Shown: piece by piece, positions 39,591-63,658 of the stretch | Layout: each line of letters begins with the position of its first letter | Numbering within the stretch: position 1 is the stretch's first letter | NCBI GenBank assembly: GCA_907163375.1 | Contig: CAJQUW010009202.1 | Coordinates: 2 to 64,001 of the forward strand | DNA length: 64,000 nucleotides | Direction of reading: 5' to 3' | From: Prostheceraeus crozeri | Lineage: Eukaryota > Platyhelminthes > Polycladida > Euryleptidae | Notes under the pieces: generated by a model | What the model was told of the DNA's origin: nothing | Databases searched by the model: none | Seen by the model: the letters and a program-made list of their open reading frames with translations, nothing else | Position numbers and translations under genes: made by a program

Positions 39591-39947
39591 CTAAAAAGTT
39601 AATGGTACATAGGTAAATTTTGAATCATAGGTATCAGAAAAAGAGAAATCCTTGTAGCTGTTCAGTTCATGTTTGTTATTAATTGTTGGTTTAGATTTGT
39701 TGACATAAAAAGCTTCTCTTAGACGAAGATTGCTTGCATCGTGGTCATGTGCCAGAACTGATGTTATGATGTTGTTCGTTTGACAGTTGTTCAAATGATT
39801 TCTGATGGACGAGTCAGCAGTTGTCATATGCTCCTTGCAGCAAATATGGAAAAATCGCACAGTGATGCCGATGTAAAATTGGTGGCATTTAGAGCAAGAA
39901 AGCTGATAAACAATGATTTTCTTCTTCCACTTCTTAGAGTCAAGCAC
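39591..39947 (-). pseudogene. Penelope-like element: GIY-YIG endonuclease domain
   Basis: A 118-codon frame carries the N-terminal half of a GIY-YIG nuclease: IVYQLSCSKCHQFYIGIT, then a basic stretch and KEHM. The Cys-x2-Cys between the GIY-like (VYQ) and YIG elements is characteristic of the endonuclease of Penelope-like elements, where it nicks target DNA for reverse-transcriptase priming. The C-terminal part (LRLREAFYVNKSKPTINN) matches the family's conserved REA..I end. It lies downstream of the reverse transcriptase, as expected. It is separated from that frame by at least one frameshift, so it is not expressed as part of an intact polyprotein. The usual Arg after YIG-x-T is VRFFH here. 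Confidence 0.8.
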
Positions 39948-40283
39948 AGGGCAATTCGATAAGTTGCAGTGTTGATCTTGCTCGTTTTGAGTGCACTTCT
40001 TTGTGTTTTACTTTCACGAATATTTATTTTTTCTCGTCAAAAGACGCTTTTAATTTGGTTATCTAACTTGTCAGATATGTAAGGGAATGGAAAATGCATA
40101 AATTCATTGTCATTTTCCGCTTAGATTCTCTGTTATTCTTTGAAGAATATTTGATAATTTGTGTGGGGTATTCATTGCTGAGGAGAGTATTTTCGAATAC
40201 ATTTTCATGTTTTTTGTAGACTTGCAAACTGGAACACCGGTCGGCAATTCGCTGCTTTTCGTTTCTGATGAAGTGAGATTTTG
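39948..40283 (-). pseudogene. Penelope-like element: linker between RT and endonuclease
   Basis: In another frame the minus strand reads SHFIRNEKQRIADRCSS and then HENVFENTLLSNEYP, the thumb/linker segment typical of Penelope-like proteins between the two domains. The preceding frame stops at 40284, so the coding continues only through a frameshift. Confidence 0.65.
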
Positions 40284-41139
40284 TTATGGTTGGTAGAGTT
40301 GATCTATAATAGACAAAATATTCTTTCTAGCTGTCTTTCTGTAGAATTCAAATTGAGGGTTGCTAGAAGTGGCTGTGGTTACAGAAAAATCAAGCAAACT
40401 GAGAGTGTTCGTAGCGGCTGGGTGTTCGATCTCGAACTTGATGTTTGGATGTTGTGAATTCAAAGTTTGGAGTAACTGAATGGCTTGCTCTTCATTTGTT
40501 ACCACGGCAAAACAGTCATCGACATAGCATTTAAACAACGGAACTTCACTCATTGTTGATAATGCTAGTCTCTCAATGTTGTCAATGAATAGGATAGCAA
40601 GTATTCCAGATAAAGAATTTCCCATTAGAAGACCAGTTGTTTGACGATAAAATTTGCCTTGAAACTCGAAGACAGTATTGTCAAGAATAACCACCAGCAG
40701 ATGTTGTATTTGGTTGACCGCGAGTCCTTTAACATGTGCGATGTTGTTGTTATGTAGTTTTTGAATAGTTGCTGAGATGGCATCATTGATTGGAATCGAA
40801 GTATACATGGCTGATATATCATAACTGCATGGTTTCAGCGGTTGATCAGAGTTAGTATTCTTGATTGCTTCAATCAGCTCCATATTCGAAGAAAGATTTG
40901 TAGGAAGGAATTTAGAAGAGGGGTCAAAAGTTTTGGCAACAGCAAAGATACTCGTAGTTTGTACCGTTTATGTTTGAAACAATAAGTCTTATTTTGTGTT
41001 GTGGACCTTGTTTATGTGTCTTTATGAGATGATAGAATTGTGGCATAGTGGAATTATTCGCCACGCAGCTTCTCGTCGCAAATTCTGGAAATCGGTTCAC
41101 TCCGGCAATGTTTTTCCACACGCTATTTATTTTGTTCAT
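40284..41139 (-). pseudogene. Penelope-like element: reverse transcriptase domain
   Basis: The first frame (41139-40924) has the N-terminal fingers segment FYHLIKTHKQGPQHKIRLIVS. After a frameshift the second (40883-40284, 199 codons) carries motif A (SYDISAMYTSIP), motif B (TGLLMGNSLSG) and catalytic motif C (YVDD). The YTSIP and YVDD arrangement is that of Penelope-like reverse transcriptases, related to telomerase, and not of LINE or LTR enzymes. The frame begins directly after the right inverted repeat, so the N-terminal third of a normal protein is absent. The catalytic aspartates are present, but frameshifts and truncation make the copy non-functional. Confidence 0.85.
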
Positions 41140-48737: not shown

Positions 48738-49332
48738 TTACTTAATCCCATTCTTGGTATGGAATAACAGTCAGAACAACGACGAAAAGTTATGAACTTC
48801 CGTGAATCTAATATTAAACTGGCATGCACATATACTTGCATTCGATTGATTAGACTTTGATGAAATCACTTGACTTAGATGCTTCCTGTGTATTTTTCTA
48901 TGATCACTGACGTAGAGCCATAGATCTGTTACATTTTGATATGGTAAAATCTTCAAACGTTGACAAACCATAGATTGCAGGTGTGATAAAGGTGAATATA
49001 AACAAAAGATGTGTTGCATATCTTAATCGTGATTGGCCAATGTTTATTCACTATCGAGAGAAAGTTAGGAGATTAATTTAAGTAATCGTCTGAAGTTGAA
49101 AAAACTATTTGGAAAGTTAAAAAGATTGTCATAAATAATGGTGATACCAAATCAAATTGGCTGCCGCAATGTAATACAGATAAGAGTATCGTTGAAATTA
49201 TGGCATTATTAATGATAATCTTAGTAAATAATTCGTTGAAGATCCACATGGTGAAGTTCAGTATCCATTCATCATAACTTTTGAATTTTCTGAAATGAGT
49301 CCAAAATTTGTTAGGAAACATTTCTACTAAAA

Positions 49333-50567
49333 GCAGTCCTGGATCAGATGGCATCTCCTCTGTTGTGTGGCCAAATTTGTGAAGTATCATTTCAATGCAT
49401 TAACTGTACTTTATAACATGTGCTTAACTAATGTCAATATTCCTCAACTGCGGAAAATTGCTGACGTAGTGCTAATCCCCAAAACCAAGCCTCCACAAAT
49501 TGATCAATTACGTCCCATATCACTATTGCCTATTCCCGAACGTATTTTTGAGACGGAGCTTTTGAGATTCGATGGTGATTGTCTATCAAGTAGAATCGAT
49601 GAGCAACAATATAGTTATCGCAAGGACAGCTCTACGACATGTGCCCTAATGTCAGCTGAGAATTTTATTTCGTCTGCCTTGCAAGAGAAGGAGGTCATAT
49701 GCTGCCACAGGCTATCAATTGATCTGTGTAAAGGATTTAAAAAAAGTTTCTTACAACTTATTAATAAACAAAATGATTGCCGACTGCATTAATCCGTTCG
49801 TCGTAAGTTTTATCTCTAACTATTTGAAATCTAGCAGCCATAGAATCAGATGGAAAAATCTTCATAGTGGTATTATTTCTGTTTTCAGTGGAGTCCCTCA
49901 GGGATCATCACTCGGACCCCTACCATTAGGATATTATGTCAGTGACCTTCATGTTGGGAACCAGTCGAATAGCTTACTTCTAAACTATGCTGATGACTTT
50001 GTGGTCATTACCAAAATTGCGAAGAACTGTGCTAAAAGTCCTATTCAATCTGAATTGATCAATATTCGTAATTGGACTTCTTCAAACAAAATGACTATCA
50101 AAATTGGTAAATGCAGCCATAAGTTTTCTAAACTTTCGAGAGCACATGACTTTTCTCACTTTGCTATAGCCGACATTCCTGTCAAATCAGAAGTGAAATT
50201 CTTGGCAGTGACGTTCGATGAATCTTTAAAATGGAGACAGCGTATATCTAATATAACAAAGAAGGCGTCGAGTAAATTGTCAGTAATTCGTCAGTTAAAG
50301 CCTTTCCTTGATACTCCGGAACTGATAACGATTTACAACAGCTGCACTCGCAGTGTCTTAGAATATGCTGCGCCTCTTTTTGTAAAGTTGCAAGCTCAAC
50401 AGCAAGATTCCATCGAGAGAATTCAAAGGAGAGCACACAAAATCATGTGCAGCGATTCTGATTGTAAGTGTTCCAATTTCATTCTACTAAATTATCGTCG
50501 TTTAATGTTAGGTATGCTTCTTTTCAGAATTTTAATCAAAGATGAGCATTCACTACTTGACACCTGA
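49333..50567 (+). pseudogene. LINE reverse transcriptase domain (frameshifted)
   Basis: The fingers read LRKIADVVLIPKTKPPQIDQ then LRPISLLPIPERIFE (49445-49550). Motif A reads LSIDLCKGF and runs into a run of seven A at 49739-49745, where the reading frame shifts; the other frame continues KVSYNLLINKMIADCINPF. Motif B is FSGVPQGSSLGPL and motif C YADD at 49986-49997, so the catalytic aspartates remain. The C-terminal part (LKWRQRISNITKKASSKLSV, then LEYAAPLFVKL, SIERIQRRAHKIM) is of CR1/Jockey type. After the TGA near 50565 another frame keeps YRLPIIRNTQRAKSF, the usual C-terminal end. One indel in a homopolymer is the main lesion of this part. Confidence 0.85.
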
Positions 50568-50675: not shown

Positions 50676-52513
50676 TGATATTTTTTTGCTTGTTTCTTTT
50701 GTTTAGGATGATGTCTTCTCGCTTCGGATTTTCACAGTGTAATTTTGTGGCCACACGATTTTCATTATTGTGGCATTCTATGAAAATATACCATCATTAT
50801 TATACTTCGACATTTGCAGCTGTACAGTAACTCTTTTATAGATTTTATGTCTTGATTGTCTTGCACATTGCAGTGTGATGTAGATCGATAACGTGAGTGT
50901 CTTTCTAGAGTCTTTCTCAACTCTAGGTATAAACGACAAATTCTTCTTTTTTCCGACACGAAGTGTTTATGATCAAGAATTTTTTAATTTAGTGCATCTA
51001 GTTGAAAATACAGATTGACAACTTAGATGTTCCAACGTGGAAGTTCGTTTAGGTCGAGCCTCAAAATTTCAGGATTGGTGCAACTGTCGGCGACCATCGA
51101 CCGACAAGTGGCACACTTCACCGATTTTGTGAAGGAATGAAGTCATCAGGTGGGCTTGAAAAAAACAGACAATCAATGATCGCCTTCGATCAATCATGCA
51201 ATCTTCGATCAAAACGGGAGAATTCTATGCAGTCAACGGTTCCGCAATTTCACGAAGTCGTTCTCCATTTTTTCAAGCTCGTGCTTATGGTTTATGATTA
51301 AGTGACGCAGTTTTGCCGATCTTTCATAAATATGAAATCAGCTGAGTCCAGACTTCAGTTCATGATATCAAAATATATACATATTATATACATCTCACTT
51401 CAGAAGTGTTCATAAAGGGCATCGATTTTATGTGTGTATGTCGAATCACGTTGATGTGCTGTATATTGCATGGGAATGGTTCATTGTACCATTTATGACA
51501 CGAACGGTGTGAAACCCATTACATTACAAGCGTTCTCGACTAAAGAAGCCTGATACATAATGATAGTTGTCCTGATTTCTTTTAGGAGCATGCATTTTCA
51601 TTATCCTTTCAGTATTGCCTGAAAAGCTGATTAGAGTTGATGATATTTCGTATCATCCTCCACTCCCGTTTTCTTCATTTTCGGATCAGCTGAATGCAAA
51701 GGACTCTTCAACTGCTTTGAAATTAGCAAATAACATTCTCTCCGTTTCTCGTAAGAGAAGTTGCACGTAACTATGACCCGAAATACCATTGCTCCCTTCG
51801 TCTACCAAGATCAAAGACAACACGATTTAAGTATTCCTTTATTTCATTCTGCTAGCGTCAGTGTGATAATATCTTATTGATCAGCTACGCAAATTTCGGC
51901 TTTTTGCATACTCACTGATTCTCCGAGTATGATGAGACAGTGAATAATTTATCTTATCGCATATAATTCCCAGCACTATATAAGTATTTAATCTGAAAGA
52001 TATATAGACCGACATCTGAAAGGTTTTTTCCAAGCGTAGCTTCAAGATATATGATACTGATATTATTGATTTAATGCGTGATGGCTTTAGCTGAGAAACA
52101 AATATTAAGCAACCATCACCATTTGACACATCAAAGGGAAAATCCAATTGAAATGTGACATTTGGGGTCTCTCGTAATTTTCTACGAAAAAGCTGATACT
52201 AATTCAATTTTTTTGTTGTTTTTTATTTATTTAGCAACATGCCAGTTCAGGGCATGTTTGAAAATTCTGCTCATTATAAGTAAACACTAAAAAATTTCAC
52301 TTGAAAACCTAAATTTTTACAATTTTGCTGTTCCACAGGAAAAGTTCATTATCTTAAAAGCCAAACTGTTAGCGTTATAAGGGTCAAAGTGGCTAAATGT
52401 GTGTTAATTTTTCTTAAGCATGACCGGAAGCGTATATAATGACAATTTTGAGCTACTTGATTTCTCTATACTACATGAAATATTTATAATACTACTTTCC
52501 ACAAAAAATCTAT
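50676..52513. other. Spacer between LINE and candidate transposon
   Basis: No gene or repeat recognised. A minus-strand open frame at 51881-52147 (88 codons) has no recognised similarity. The left limit of the candidate transposon may lie within the end of this stretch. Confidence 0.4.
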
Positions 52514-52705
52514 GTCATCTGACCGACGCTTCTAAAAAATGTATACAACAAATTTGAAGTCTTTTTTTCAGCGCGTTTGACACATAGTGAAGGCCCTTTT
52601 ACGAGCAATAGAGTTTGAGCTCAAATAATAACTATTGTACGAACAAGAGCCATTTTTAGGTTCAAAATATCTATTATTTGACCACAAAATGTCATCTGAC
52701 CGACG
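52514..52705 (+). repeat. Left direct copies of GTCATCTGACCGACG
   Basis: Perfect copies at 52514-52528 and 52691-52705. The similarity extends upstream (ccacaaaa...atgtcat) and one or two bases downstream, so the repeated unit is longer than 15 bp here. Spacing is 177 bp. Confidence 0.9.
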
Positions 52706-52859
52706 CTACTTCCAAGTTATTTTAGATATATTTACAAAAAGATTTAAGTAAAATTGATTTCGTCCCTGCATTTGATCAATGTCATTCTTTAACGTAAGAG
52801 CCAAGCACAAAAGCTAGAAAAATCATACTTTCCCAAAATGTGAGTTTTATGCACAACAT

Positions 52860-52900
52860 GTCATCTTACCGACGGTACCCGAAAACGTCGGTCAGATGAC
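52860..52900. repeat. Left hairpin of the 15-bp motif
   Basis: GTCATCTTACCGACG at 52860-52874 (one mismatch) faces CGTCGGTCAGATGAC at 52886-52900 across 11 bases, forming a 15-bp stem with one mismatch. The inverted copy is the only one of the seven in that orientation. Confidence 0.9.
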
Positions 52901-53563
52901 ATACATTTAATCATAACACCTCCAGAAACCTCCATCAAATTTTGGCGACGCATTCTTGATTAATACGTTAATATTTCGTTCTATATTCAAGCCTGGTATC
53001 TTGTCTTGCATATATTGACACTGTGCATCTTCGAATTCGCTCATATTTTCTATTTGCTATTATTAGATTCAAAATCATTACATTGTTTAACCCAATATTT
53101 ATTGACAATTTCAATGTGAAAAAATTGCGAGAATTAAATGATATATAATGCCCGGAATTCCAGGCATCACATAAAATAACGTTCAATTTCCATGAAAATG
53201 GAATATACATGTACTTATTCAACCTTTCGAGCAGAATGGCAGAGAGATTTCTCTTGAATCGCAATTTAGAATTTGAATGAAATGTAGAAAATTATTGCTC
53301 CATTGATATCATCGCAACTATAGATTTCTATGCTATAGATTCCTGTTCTGCCAACCTATTTTCAAGACAACAATTACGATTTGAAATTTCAAATTCAAAT
53401 TATCATTTCTATTCTCTTACTGCTTTGCTTGCATCTCTCATTACCGTCCGGTTGAAAGTTGCATCATGAGTCCTGTCGATATGAACAAGAAGCGAGCAAG
53501 TGTGAAATATCGAAAAAGTCATACATAAAGAAAGTCTCCACACAAAGTACACGTGACAAGAGG

Positions 53564-56500
53564 ATGCAACAGAGAAATTGGAGGCAACTGCAAAGGAAAC
53601 ATCGAAAGGGTAATGGTGATGAGTCAGCAAGTGTGTCAAGTAGTTCTTTCATCTCGACAACATCTTCCAGACGAGAAGCGGCAATGACAAGAGAGAAATC
53701 CAAAAGAAGAAGAGAAATCAAATCCCTCAGACGCGAGAACATCAAGATGAAAAGAAAGCTCTGGCGTCTTTCCAAGAAATTGGTGAAGCAAGAAGAAACG
53801 AGCATAGAGTCTCCAACAAAGTTGACAATGGATGCTATGAGTTCAAAGAAGAAGATGCGCAAATGCCTACTGGCGCATTTCAGCCTTGTGCAACATCTGT
53901 CTGCGAAGTCAAGAGACAAGAGGCGTCTTATTGAAATTGCCCGAAAAATCAGCAAGAAATATCGTGGTCTCCAAACGCACTTCCGACGAACAGCGAAGAT
54001 TGCCCAACGCTCCCTGTCCCGAAAAAAGAAAGAACTACGTAAACCAGAAATATCTAATGAGGAGATCGTTCGAAATTTCTACTGTAGAGACGATAACAGC
54101 AGAAATACAAGCGGAAAAAAGGAGACAATCACCCGAAAGAAAGTCAAAATGCAAAAGCGGTATCTGAACTTCACTCAGGAGGTACTTTACGAGAAGTTCG
54201 AAACTGAGTATCCCGGATTGATTGGGAGATCTACTTTCTACAACTATCGCCCGTTTTGGGTTCTTCGACCCCGCATCCATGACCGTGAAATGTGCTTATG
54301 TATTCGCTGCTGCAATGTGCAAGTAAGTCACAAAAATTCTTGTATCTTCTATATGTATATCCAATATGCCTATAAGCTGTAACCGATGTTATTCATTAGA
54401 TACATGCACGCTACTAGTATCTATAGGCCCCTAATAATAAATGATGTCTCTTTCAGACACTACACACATTACATTGTAGACATGTCCTACAACCCTACTA
54501 CATGCACTTGCCTAAGCAATAATAAATCTAAGCACGTTCGATGCTTCATTAACTGAAAGTTTGTAGTTTCTCCTAAGCAGCATAATTTTAGGTTGAAGTT
54601 TAAAAAAGCCGATGCTGTTGATCTTGAATATGTATTAACCCAAATTTTCGTCTGTACTCAGACCGCGTCAGGGGAAGAAGTGCGTAGTCTTCTCAATAGA
54701 TCAACAGCATCGGCTATTTTAAATTTTAAGCTTTCATTAACCTTTACATTTTTTGATGATGCATGTATTTGTATGTACAATACTTCACTGTGTATCTTAT
54801 ATTTTGCAATGTCACACACTGAGTTGGCCAACACACATGTGTGTATTGTAGTCTGCATGTTGTTCTGGCTTCGTATTAGTACGCACTTTTCCTATTTCAG
54901 TTGATGGCAGATACTTTATTTTTGAACAACATTATTTCAACAAGAGACTTATCATCTCTGCAGTCGCAAATTGTTTGTTCAATGGATGACTACAACTGTT
55001 GTACTTCGAATTGTGAAAGCTGCAAGAATGCAAGCGCTGTAGACTATTCCAAAGTGGGTCCAATATTTTTGAAATTCTACAAATGGGAAAGGATTGTTGA
55101 CGAGAACAATTATGCATCCAACAAATGTCAAATGGTAAGATGATTGATTTGATTCACAAAGTTCCCTAGTGCTAATTGACACTTTACCCTATAAATCCCC
55201 TACTTTTCTTGCTTATAAAATAGGCCTAACAAAATACATGTAGCAACATACTGGAATGAAAAACTTAAAATATAAACCGCTTTAAACGATATCTAACTTA
55301 ACGATGAAATGACCTGATAATAATCTGTTCAGATCTTTAACCCTTTAACAAAAAAACTGCAGTGAATTTCCATATAATATCATCATTTTTTGATGCATAC
55401 AATAGTACCTTACGCATATGCAAGTCTAAATTCGAATCGTCCATGATTTTCATTCACAGTGTAAATCATACCACGCATACTCCTTTTTTGACTTCTTCAT
55501 CCTTTGCCATTTTACATTGCAGTAAAGTACAAGGACATGCATTGTGCTGTAGCGTTTAGTAGCTCGAAAGGTTTCTTTTTATTAAAGCAACATCTGCTAG
55601 TCTGCTTGGATTCAATTTTTCATTTTGAGAATAAAGGTTATACAACGATTATGATACATGTTTAATTTATTTAGTGTATGTCATAAGTGTAGCAATACTG
55701 TTAATACTTTGTGACATATGTTTAATATTTACATGTAATTGCGGCTTGTATTCGCAATTATGAACTTATTTTATCAGCAGTATTTTTTCACAGAAACTCG
55801 AAAGTGCTGTCGGCCTGGTCAAACAATTTGAATCACTACTTCGTTCTCATGTAATGCATGTTTACCGCATTCGCCATCAATATAAGGAGATACAGCGCAC
55901 GAAACAAAATCTTTCCAATGACGAAATGCTCATTAACATCGACTTCTCAGAAAATTATTCGTGTAAAAGATTTCGAGAGATCCAGTCAGCGCATTTCGGG
56001 AACAGAAAACAGATAGTAATCCATCAAGGAATTTACTATCGAAATGGGGAACCTCCCCACAGTTTCGCAACGATATCAGAGGATAAGAGAAAGACCGCTG
56101 ATGCAATTGCAGCATACCAGAATTCCATCCTGTTGGACATCAAACCGAACAATGTCAAGAAGGTGAAATATTCGTAATATCTTTTTCCGTTTTCTGTATC
56201 CAATCATAAGTGAGAATCTTTTTTCTAGCTTATTGTAGTGTCGGATTCTCCTACGAGTCAGTATAGGAACAGGAGTATGCTCCACCTGATGACCCAAGTA
56301 TGCGCCTTACACGGTTTGGAAGAATACCAATGGCTTTACACATAAGCCGGGCACGGCAAAGGTCCAGCCGACGGGATCGGTGCGTTGGCCAAAAGATTGG
56401 CCGATGAACATGTAGTTCTTGGAGGACACAACCTAGAATCGGCGCAGGATTTCTACAGAATGATGAATTCGGCCAACACACAGATACAATGCAAGGTGGT

Positions 56501-57106
56501 AGGTATCAAAACCGAAAGAGTTGAAATAACAAACATGTATAATACTGTACTTGATATTCTCATATTTCAGTTCATTAACTATGACGATTCTATTTAAAAG
56601 AAACTTACGCACAATGGTGATGAATTATGCTAAAAATGCACATGTGCGGATGTATGCAAATGTATTCATTGAATTGTACACGAATCGATATGCGCAAATC
56701 TTCATGAGGGCCTAAATATGCACATGCACTGAGTAAGAATGCCTTGAACTTCAAAATAAATTGTACGAGCACCTAGATATTTGTTTTAGTACCGTGTCCA
56801 TCGGCAAAAACATCGTAGAATACCTAATCAGTTTCATAATATGGTGCCGATTGTGTTGTAAACTTGAATGTGCTTTCTTTATAAATGAATGCTTGTAATA
56901 ATGCATTGACTATTTTGTAGATAACAAAACGCGAAATTGACCAAATGGCGACCCTGCAAAAATCCCTAAAGCCGATGAAGGGCATCGGAAATTGCCATCA
57001 TGTACACTGGAAACTGGGAAATTGTGTAATCTATCGCGAGCTCGCCTGTCATTGCAAATTTGCCAGCCATTGCACTTGTTTCAACAAGCAGACTTGGGTA
57101 ATGTGA
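53564..57106 (+). CDS. Transposase-like protein, DDE/D-like, five exons, one nonsense codon
   Basis: Exons 53564-54322, 54901-55134, 55794-56162, 56229-56498 and 56921-57106 join with GT/AG introns, all phase 0, to 605 codons plus stop. The N-terminus is very basic with a coiled-coil segment (residues about 55-85, RRENIKMKRKLWRLSKK). Next come FYCRDDNSRNTSGKKE and RYLNFTQEVLYEKFE, then Cys motifs (MCLCIRCC; CCTSNCESC) that probably bind zinc. Exon 3 has INIDFSENYSCK, exon 4 VVSDSPTSQYRNR and GHGKGPADGIG; their aspartates are candidate catalytic residues. Exon 5 is Cys/His-rich. I recall this motif set from a large unnamed family in cnidarian, arthropod, mollusc and fish genomes. A TAA at 56343-56345 lies four residues before HGKG, so this copy is probably dead. 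The start is uncertain: ATG 53564 is the first in frame, but ATG 53467 opens a short basic frame that could be the true N-terminus after an indel. Confidence 0.65.
54593..54743. repeat. Inverted repeat within intron 1 (MITE-like)
   Basis: AGCCGATGCTGTTGATCT at 54607-54624 is perfectly inverted at 54698-54715. Weaker matching continues outward (ggttgaag..tttaaa against tttaaa..ctttcattaacc). A total of about 150 bp with a 73-bp interior suggests a tiny non-autonomous element within the intron. Confidence 0.6.
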
Positions 57107-57128
57107 CGATTTTTTAAAAGTAGTGATC

Positions 57129-57134
57129 AATAAA
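57129..57134 (+). terminator. Poly(A) signal AATAAA of the transposase-like gene
   Basis: AATAAA occurs 22 bases after the TGA at 57104-57106 and is followed by T-rich sequence. This supports exon 5 as the last exon. Confidence 0.55.
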
Positions 57135-57267
57135 ATATTATTTCAATAGTATTGTTTTTATTGTCTTATAACATGGAGCAAGGTTCAAGAAATCTAAAGC
57201 ATGCTTTTATATGTATTTCAAGCTCAATTTAGAATATTGTCTTCTTATGTCTCAAACACATGATATT

Positions 57268-57325
57268 GTCATCTGACCGACGTCTAATGTCATCTGACCG
57301 ACGCCAATTTGTCATCTGACCGACG
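57268..57325 (+). repeat. Right cluster: three phased copies of the 15-bp motif
   Basis: Perfect copies at 57268-57282, 57289-57303 and 57311-57325, with starts 21 and 22 bp apart, so successive copies face the same side of the helix. They begin about 160 bp after the stop codon of the transposase-like gene and about 130 bp after its poly(A) signal. Confidence 0.95.
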
Positions 57326-57531
57326 CACCAAATATTTTGGGGGCCCATATTTCAGATAGACAAAAGTTTTTGTGGGTCTCATATATATATATCTCAACTA
57401 GGCACACTTTAAACAGCAAAATAGGATAAAAACATTTGTAATTTCCGACAACAATATTTTTCTCACCTAATGTCACTTTTTGATTGGATTTTCCCCAAAA
57501 TCGCATCAAGCGATATTTTTTCCGATATTTT

Positions 57532-61737: not shown

Positions 61738-62245
61738 TTCTGACGGCGAGTGTTATTACCTCTGAAACAATCAACAATGACATAATGTTCAACAAGAAAA
61801 ACACTTCTCGAACTCTCTTTACCATTTGTTGCATCTCAATGAAGCGATTAGGGGATGCGGTCATCAAATCTTCCTTGGTACCATCATTCATTGGAGATGT
61901 TGCTATTGACGTCTACTTACTTCGTCCTTATATTCATTGCTTCGCATGATGATGTATCACTGATTTGCGATTCAATAATACGAAGAATGCTACTGTACTG
62001 TGTTTCATTATTCTGAAAATTGATAACGAACCCCTATGAAAGGAAATTTGAAACAATTTCCCTCAAGCCATCAACATTGGGTCCGCTGCAAAACTCGCAA
62101 CTGAAAATATACCCTATCAGTTATCAGTTTCATACAAGTCTTAGTTAAAAGTGAAACATACCGTTACAATCACTTGAAAGGAGCCAGGGTACAGTTTATG
62201 TAGATGCTATTGCAATTATAATCTGAGAAATATCCTCATACTTAC
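61738..62245. other. Spacer between the inverted repeat and the UNC-50 exon
   Basis: Open minus-strand frames at 61625-61891 and a stretch bounded by splice-like sites (61921-62012) do not match UNC-50 and do not join it in phase. They are not annotated as coding. The next UNC-50 exon was not found here. Confidence 0.35.
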
Positions 62246-62521
62246 TGTATAACAAGGGTAATTGCAGTACGTGTAGAACAAAAATCAGCGGAACAAATGC
62301 ATTCAGATGCACATCAAAGGCATAGCCCCATTCAACATCTTCTCCGGCAGATCGATTTTTTCTTGGCCGCATAAATCGATTTACTGTGAGCCATGTTGCA
62401 GTAGCCACAATTAAGCCAATTCCAATACAGTCCACAAAGATTACCCATAAGGCAAAAAATATGAGCGGCAAAGCACCACATCGATGTATTTCAAAAAAGA
62501 GAGCAAAAATAAGCGATGTCA
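62246..62521 (-). CDS. UNC50: UNC-50 homologue, one internal exon
   Basis: A 276-bp minus-strand exon is bounded by a polypyrimidine acceptor (ttttttttcag) and a consensus donor (gtaagt at 62245). It enters mid-codon (two bases complete the first codon) and leaves in phase 1. It encodes 91 whole codons containing FFALWVIFVDCIGIGLIVAT, VEWGYAFDVHLNAF and PLIFVLHVLQLPLLY, matching the central transmembrane part of UNC-50 (WV..DC.G.GL.IAT and DVEWGYAFDVHLNAF are hallmarks). UNC-50 is a multipass Golgi membrane protein involved in trafficking of acetylcholine receptors. Two or three hydrophobic segments are visible. The exon is intact. Upstream exons should lie beyond 64000. The C-terminal exon (normally with GYSALPFL) was not found in the 2 kb downstream, so this is either a gene with a long following intron or an isolated exon copy. 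Confidence 0.85.
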
Positions 62522-63658
62522 CTGAAAAAAAACATCATTGAAAGCAATCATTATGCACAAAAACAAGTAGAATTTACCTAAGTATATGTCACAACGCTGA
62601 GACAAATTATCATTGCCACATCATTACCATTAGCATTAACTGCTATTAATCAAATTAAAATAATCTGGATAAAATAAATTGATAAGACACTGAATAAAAT
62701 AGTAAGTCGTGAAATAATATAACATAACTTAAGTCAATCATTGTCGGATACTATGTATAATATAGTACATTTCTAAAATTGGCGCGACTAACAATGCAGC
62801 CTAAATCAATTCCATTAAAGAATATTTCCTTGAATTATTAGCTTTCTGCAATTAATATGCTATTTCATGAACAAATTTCTTTGATTTTCTTTCATCAAAA
62901 CTACCAAGAGATATTTGACTACTCATTAGGCGAAATCACGAGCATTTGAAGAAACTTGCAGGTGCCGAAGAGCATATTAATCAGCTAATGCGTCGCCATG
63001 AAATTTCTTGCAGAACTCCCGTCACGGATGTTCTTTCTAAACCAAAGCTAATTATGGCTGACATGCGGCTGTGAAGAACGCATGTGCACCTAAGATGCCA
63101 TTTCGTTTAATTGCAAAATCATGAATGAGATACATACACTACCATCTTATAAGCTTGTAAGCTTTTTCACTATATTGGTCGTAATAAGCACCTTTCCATG
63201 TTGAATTCATTCATGAGATGTTTAGTAGAGGCTTGCTGAAAAACATCCGGCTTTAAATTGTTTTATCAATTTCGATGTTATAATTCACATGATGATTATT
63301 CTATGAAGAACAATTCAAACACAATATATTTCAATGATAGGGTAAAGTCGGGTAAAATCGACAGGTGAGCTACTATTCCAAAACGATGTGTCACAACTGC
63401 AGGAACTCATCCATGTGGGCAGCAAATTGTACTGATAAGGTAATAGAAGCTTGATGGAACGCTTCTGATTGCCTCATTCGGACCGATATCAAACCGTGAC
63501 ATGAGTCGTCGAATAAAGCATACTGCCCCGACAAGTTCAAACCAGTAAACTCTTTCACGCGCCACCTGATAGCTAAGTGTTTGGCTATGGACTATATAGG
63601 GGGTGCAGTTTCACTGAATACTGATGACTACGTCTAATTCTTTGATTATTTTTAGTTA
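62522..63658. other. Presumed UNC-50 intron, AT-rich
   Basis: No UNC-50 N-terminal coding (the FEFAAWQM region) was found on the minus strand here. No repeats of note are seen before the Tc1-like element. Confidence 0.4.

Follow-up and report, generated by a model that had tools for sequence, protein, structure and literature searches.

Seven nearly identical copies of a 15-bp motif stand on either side of a spliced, transposase-like gene in the polyclad flatworm Prostheceraeus crozeri, and the question raised by this locus is whether gene and motifs belong to one mobile element and, if so, what the motifs do. The locus lies in a 64,000-nucleotide stretch of genomic DNA (contig CAJQUW010009202.1, positions 2 to 64,001 of the forward strand), referred to here as the window. 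A first-pass annotation, made from the letters of the window, had marked positions 52514-57325 and suggested that gene and motifs define an undescribed animal DNA transposon. The analysis presented here identifies the element as a copy from a mobile, once active and young family, presumably of the cut-and-paste kind, whose sister copies are mostly about 99% identical. We consider it highly likely that this is a DDD-class cut-and-paste transposon, in the first place a new Sola family nearest to Sola2 by target preference, and that the 15-mers are binding sites of its transposase.

Motif sites, element ends and insertion record

With as many as three mismatches allowed, the motif GTCATCTGACCGACG matches at seven places in the window, six of them exact and one with a single mismatch, and all fall inside 52514-57325. 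Shuffled sequence gave on average 0.78 matches and never more than 4 in 100 shuffles, which rules out clustering by chance and agrees with the first-pass annotation on both the non-random nature of the array and its confinement to this part of the window. The fourth copy of the left set is inverted, the other six all lie on the plus strand, and the starts of the right set are spaced 21 and 22 bp apart.

The motifs had also been thought to mark the outer ends of the element, but terminal inverted repeats (TIRs) lie farther out, and the 15-mers were therefore rejected as termini: the outermost left motif starts 378 bp inside the left tip, and the outermost right motif ends 170 bp inside the right tip. 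A repeat search found TIRs of 30 bp, with arms at 52136-52165 and 57466-57495 that are complementary at 26 of 30 positions, compared with a best value of 23 among 200 dinucleotide-shuffled pairs of the two 1500-bp flanks. The arms open with GGGAAAATCC, and the tips read GGG...CCC in the window copy and in most other copies. Since CAAA borders the inverted arms on either side, the whole element measures 5360 bp (52136-57495), its limits lying outside the region first noticed. This boundary is also drawn from the flanks, which differ among copies, and from the existence of an empty site; the left-end genome search was run with a query that started at the presumed end, and alignments beginning at its position 1 were not counted as boundary evidence. 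The features are as follows.

52132..52135, no strand: left target-site duplication CAAA (sequence reading, copy comparison)
52136..57495, plus strand: full transposon copy, with TIRs, copy-specific flanks outside and an interior mostly about 99% identical among copies
52136..52165, plus strand: left TIR GGGAAAATCCAATTGAAATGTGACATTTGG (inverted-repeat search, shuffle test)
52514..52528, plus strand: subterminal motif L1, exact (this and the other motifs by motif scan)
52691..52705, plus strand: subterminal motif L2, exact
52860..52874, plus strand: subterminal motif L3, one mismatch
52886..52900, minus strand: subterminal motif L4, exact, inverted
57268..57282, plus strand: subterminal motif R1, exact
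57289..57303, plus strand: subterminal motif R2, exact
57311..57325, plus strand: subterminal motif R3, exact
57466..57495, minus strand: right TIR, 26 of 30 positions against the left arm (inverted-repeat search, shuffle test)
57496..57499, no strand: right target-site duplication CAAA (sequence reading, copy comparison)

Searches of the host genome assembly (2.05 Gb, 14165 contigs) recovered 519 occurrences of GTCATCTGACCGACG at up to one mismatch versus 138 for the reversed control, 181 occurrences of a pattern of two neighbouring motifs versus none for the control, and 15 matches to the left end of the element, the window included. The family to which the window copy belongs (family 1) was assembled from 16 loci, namely the window and L031-L045. 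Their flanks outside the tips differ, except in same-site pairs and where the right flank is (AT)n, as in L032, L037 and L045. The pairs with shared flanks (L036/L039, L041/L044 and L042/L043) are either haplotigs or duplicated assembly segments. Both ends are present in 10 of the 16 loci, the rest being cut or one-ended in the stretch concerned. Seven of these ten copies carry perfect 4-bp target-site duplications (CAAA, ATGT, ATAC, CTAT and, three times, ATAT), and in L032, L036 and L039 the duplications agree at three of four bases. The ATAT of L037 is the weakest of the perfect seven because its right tip has a mismatch and its flank is (AT)n. The variant form of L3 is identical in all 10 other family-1 loci that have this part (within L031-L040; L042 and L043 lack the segment, and L041, L044 and L045 lack the left end). 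A further site 401 bp from the left tip, present in L032 and L040, is missing from the window copy.

An empty counterpart was found for the copy at L040 (contig C8122): its flanks, joined with a single ATAC, match contig C1939 at 100% over 256 nt. A 1001-bp stretch around the C1939 site is 98.8% identical to the joined flanks in an alignment that spans the junction, and 17 more copies of the same repeat match the joined flanks at 88-98%. C1939 may be allelic to the L040 site or may be one more copy of this repeat. For L033, repeat copies span the junction by about 17-19 nt only and lend it weak support; a genome search for the window copy's own empty site found none. With TIRs, target duplications, copies in differing flanks and one empty site, the proposal of a mobile DNA transposon is borne out.

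Motif clusters elsewhere in the genome were expected to flank paralogues of the gene, and largely do so. Among the contigs listed with tandem motif pairs, 10 of 16 have a match to exon 3 within 6 kb, judged against the 150 scored exon-3 matches. Of the contigs with no such match nearby, C1037 and C2035 hold family-2 right ends (see below) with transposase remains, and C4138 holds a family-1 copy ended by the contig end; this check covered 13 of the 16 contigs, with C1211, C1707 and C4027 outside it. L048 and L049 have single motifs each.

The transposase gene and its protein

Five exons lie between the two motif sets, with acceptor and donor sites consistent with all exon boundaries.

53466..54322, plus strand: exon 1, encoding the basic, helical N-terminal part; it lacks 55 nt that L032 has and is frameshifted
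54901..55134, plus strand: exon 2, Cys-rich, likely zinc-binding (gene model, homologue comparison)
55794..56162, plus strand: exon 3, with the predicted first catalytic Asp at codon 55941-55943 in DFSENY (gene model, homologue comparison)
56229..56498, plus strand: exon 4, with the predicted second Asp at 56244-56246, the third at 56370-56372 (GHGKGPADG) and a premature TAA at 56343-56345
56921..57106, plus strand: exon 5, C-terminal Cys cluster and stop (gene model)

The same boundaries applied to the sister copy L032 give an uninterrupted frame of 656 amino acids with a single terminal stop, and in this respect the five-exon model of the first-pass annotation stands. It does not stand as a working gene in the window, where exon 1 has lost 55 nt between 53499 and 53500 relative to L032, with a resulting frameshift, and exon 4 is stopped in frame by the TAA. 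Because of these two lesions the window copy cannot encode the full protein; it is a pseudogene, a dead member of a young family. Pairwise identity among 11 aligned copies is 98.2-99.4%, apart from L038, whose values of 95.2-97.1% are possibly in part an alignment effect. L038 likewise has a single terminal stop, after 654 amino acids; L032 apart, the other nine aligned copies, the window copy among them, are interrupted, frameshifted or shortened. Intron 1 contains a 42-nt inverted repeat (54583-54624 / 54698-54739, 83% complementary) that could form a hairpin and is possibly a small nested insertion.

At least 493 homologues of the protein were found; among the 120 listed, the named hosts include insects, fish, a hagfish and a chiton, and the annotation is mostly uncharacterized, hypothetical or unnamed protein. 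Residues D439, D516 and D558 of the homologue P0001 are invariant in 63 sequences. The structure model of a homologue shows an RNase H-like fold in which the three invariant Asp occupy places fitting a DDD triad; the DDE/D-like aspartates noticed in the first pass are in keeping with this predicted fold, and the enzyme is predicted to be a DDD-type transposase with an RNase H-like core. Retroviral integrases and Mos1 were compared on fold alone, with 7-14% sequence identity in the fold-comparison rows and an otherwise different architecture. Pfam searches returned no family match for the window protein (one sub-threshold match, E 0.18) or for the open frame of family 3 (one sub-threshold match, E 0.0049); neither protein matched a BED domain, and the window protein did not match an integrase model. 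A sequence search of solved structures with exons 4-5 gave one chance-like match (E 1.7). Pattern matches in viral contigs (161) and genome contigs (213) yielded no relative confirmed by tblastn, and no relative was found in phages at the DNA level. One homologue, P0008, joins the transposase to a C-terminal OTU-like cysteine protease domain.

Site geometry in three related families

Two further families with the same type of transposase were delimited. Family 2 (L046 and L067, 5278 and 4677 bp) encodes a protein 43-64% identical to the window protein, depending on the segment. Its TIR begins GGGGAAATCCGCCA; both elements have 4-bp duplications (2 of 2), ATAT and AAAT, and the motif is GTCATCAGACCGACG, the form taken by 8 of 10 matches in one element and 8 of 11 in the other. 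Family 3 is known from one element of 6099 bp (L070 and L069 together), in which an open frame of 764 codons, ending at a donor-like sequence, spans the transposase and shares 38% identity with the window protein across 584 amino acids. Its tips are GGGCAAATCCATTTTAAATG and its motif is CGTTATGATCTACG, with no copy of the GTCATCTGACCGACG motif; its duplication is CATA if the tip is taken as GGG (AGGG in the left arm, GGGG in the right).

Measured from the left tip, sites in family 1 (L040) lie at 379, 401, 578 and 747 bp on the plus strand and at 773 bp on the minus strand; those in family 2 (L067) at 389, 411, 589 and 756 bp (plus) and 772, 793 and 814 bp (minus); and those in family 3 at 601, 768 and 783 bp (plus) and 795, 816 and 837 bp (minus), the outermost left pair being absent. 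Right sites are found at 168, 190 and 211 bp in family 1 and at 170, 191 and 212 bp in family 2, and family 3 has nine, from 179 to 348 bp at a spacing of 21-22 bp. The site geometry is thus largely conserved across the three families, and the motif and TIR sequences change. Motifs are nearly uniform inside one element and different among families, as would be expected of a site that coevolves with its own protein. At L068 (G000:C3129:9600-17600), a relative of family 2, positions 791-2422 contain GTCATCAGACCGACG 74 times in exact and 4 times in near form, mostly in 21-bp units; here the putative binding site appears to have turned into a minisatellite.

The genome-wide exon-3 search scored 150 matches of 1155 candidates, including a group at 39-50% identity. 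Groups of equal score, together with open frames of up to 766 amino acids, suggest that this genome may have hosted more than one active family of the transposase.

Classification and function of the sites

The first-pass annotation knew of no established superfamily for such an element. One that fits is Sola (Sola1, Sola2 and Sola3), reportedly described by Bao and colleagues in 2009. We regard the element as probably Sola-type, matched by feature descriptions and not by sequence, because everything measured (DDD class, 4-bp duplications rich in AT, size and TIRs) agrees with it. Sola elements are described as having a DDD transposase, 4-bp duplications, variable tips, TIRs between 11 and 1124 bp and, for the most part, lengths of 2-9 kb (PMC10741241); a choanoflagellate Sola1 of 3270 bp has 32-bp inverted repeats, a 4-bp duplication and an intron-containing gene (PMC6875170); and amoebozoan Sola2 elements show the AT-rich duplications ATAT, AAAT and ATTT (PMC3627910). 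The present elements resemble them in the predicted DDD-type RNase H-like transposase, in the 30-bp TIR and sizes of 5360, 5278, 4677 and 6099 bp, which are within range, and in 4-bp duplications not bound to TTAA (7 of 10 perfect and 3 of 10 with one mismatch in family 1, 2 of 2 in family 2, and the single-ATAC empty site). A conserved array of subterminal sites was not found for Sola elements in the open-licence literature, as far as the passages compared go. The name Sola is absent from the annotations of the 120 homologues listed of 493, and no test of superfamily membership came from PMC4455052, PMC12477816, PMC9033089 and PMC9783078. Paired or combined with "transposase", the peptide strings HGKGA, HGKGP and SENYS were not found in open-licence papers, sequences within figures not covered.

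It is rather unlikely that the same kind of transposon belongs to a different superfamily with short AT-rich duplications, either an unnamed one or Academ, which has 3-4-bp duplications and a Cys8 zinc finger. No Pfam family claims the window protein or the family-3 frame, the fit to Sola was judged from published descriptions of its features, and the mean length of bivalve Academ elements (5565 bp) is as near to ours as that of curated bivalve Sola1 elements (5445 bp; PMC10294476). Against this, the combination of DDD and 4-bp duplications is the description of Sola (PMC10741241), and ATAT and AAAT are duplications reported for amoebozoan Sola2 (PMC3627910). Other named groups were rejected. 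Like the present elements, the hATs Hermes, Tol2 and Buster1 (PMC4298943) carry many short subterminal repeats; hAT elements differ in their 8-bp duplications (PMC10741241) and Hermes in its BED finger, whereas here the duplications are 4 bp, Pfam detects no BED domain and the sites are phased 15-mers. Ginger is alike in its duplications of 4-6 bp and in an integrase fold of the retroviral type, and differs in its TG...CA tips (PMC10741241), as opposed to GGG...CCC and no integrase match in Pfam. Kolobok (PMC9587614) and piggyBac (PMC7351741) also make 4-bp duplications, which are TTAA-specific; the duplications across our three families are CAAA, ATGT, ATAC, CTAT, ATAT, AAAT and CATA.

A bolder reading, which we hold to be doubtful, is that the protein family founds a superfamily of its own among animal DNA transposons, or else a major branch apart, and that a fixed plan of the ends defines it. 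The marks of this plan would be tips of GGG and 4-bp targets rich in AT. On the left, sites would stand at about 380-410 bp (family 3 lacks these), 580-600 bp and 750-770 bp, together with an inverted set; on the right, an array with a phase of 21-22 bp would begin 168-179 bp from the tip. Site sequence would drift while geometry stays, and transposase and sites would therefore coevolve.

Returning to the 15-mers as transposase-binding sites of a Sola-type element, a function in promoter activity, host-factor binding or RNA features, merely carried along, seems improbable. The left cluster precedes the start codon by 566-952 bp, a distance at which a promoter could lie, but the right array lies past the 3' end of the gene, its position 168-179 bp from the tip and its phase recur in three families with differing motifs, and the motifs are near-uniform per element and family-specific. 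One paralogue departs from the pattern of shared site layout: L066, whose exon 3 is 77% identical, shows neither the motif (at up to three mismatches) nor a TIR of the type searched for in a 7.5-kb stretch that stops short of its left part. The copy is degraded, no exon 1 was found and the match to exon 5 ends early; the stretch probably does not reach the ends of this element. The other paralogue without GTCATCTGACCGACG, L069/L070, carries a different motif in a like layout. A host gene with a chance repeat cluster, or a domesticated transposase, could account for the spliced five-exon gene and for homologues annotated mostly as uncharacterized, hypothetical or unnamed proteins. It is ruled out to near certainty by the many copies, each in its own surroundings, by their TIRs and target duplications, by the empty site and by the pseudogene state of the window copy.

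A mechanism can be proposed for the preferred binding-site reading. Hermes has asymmetric subterminal repeats that are bound by its N-terminal BED domain and drive transpososome assembly, and several hATs need DNA well beyond the TIR (PMC10368747). By analogy, the basic helical N-terminal part of the present transposase probably reads DNA and binds the 15-mers; the rest of the predicted protein comprises a zinc-binding region rich in Cys and His, a three-Asp core of RNase H-like type and a C-terminal Cys cluster. The enzyme would cut the TIRs at their 5'-GGG tips, presumably by metal-dependent cleavage, and join the cut ends to target strands 4 bp apart at AT-rich targets, leaving the 4-bp duplications. 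The left end has spaced direct sites with one or more inverted sites, the right end an array at a phase of about 21 bp (two helical turns). This phase may line protomers up along a single face of the helix, and several of them may be loaded per end; the unlike site sets could allow the two ends to be told apart, so that the enzyme pairs one of each.

Elsewhere in the window, a reverse-transcriptase open reading frame (ORF) matching Pfam RVT_1 lies at 40287-40967 (minus strand) and is followed, as in Penelope-like elements, by an ORF at 39594-40007 (minus strand), which had no Pfam match and which, by eye, we take to resemble a GIY-YIG endonuclease. Two overlapping ORFs at 49331-50564 (plus strand), the second matching RVT_1, are perhaps LINE-type remains in two frames, and an exon-like ORF at 62199-62534 (minus strand) matches UNC-50, an ordinary host gene.

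What is new here is the conserved layout of subterminal sites combined with a changing motif sequence; the biology is otherwise of a known kind. An anonymous, widespread protein family for which Pfam has no model gains defined ends, target duplications and a record of recent activity in one genome. If the element is a Sola, as is likely, this is to our knowledge the first detailed end map for that little-studied superfamily. The three families, with unlike motifs and like geometry, amount to a natural experiment on how transposase and site change together, and because an uninterrupted copy exists, binding and excision can be put to a direct test.

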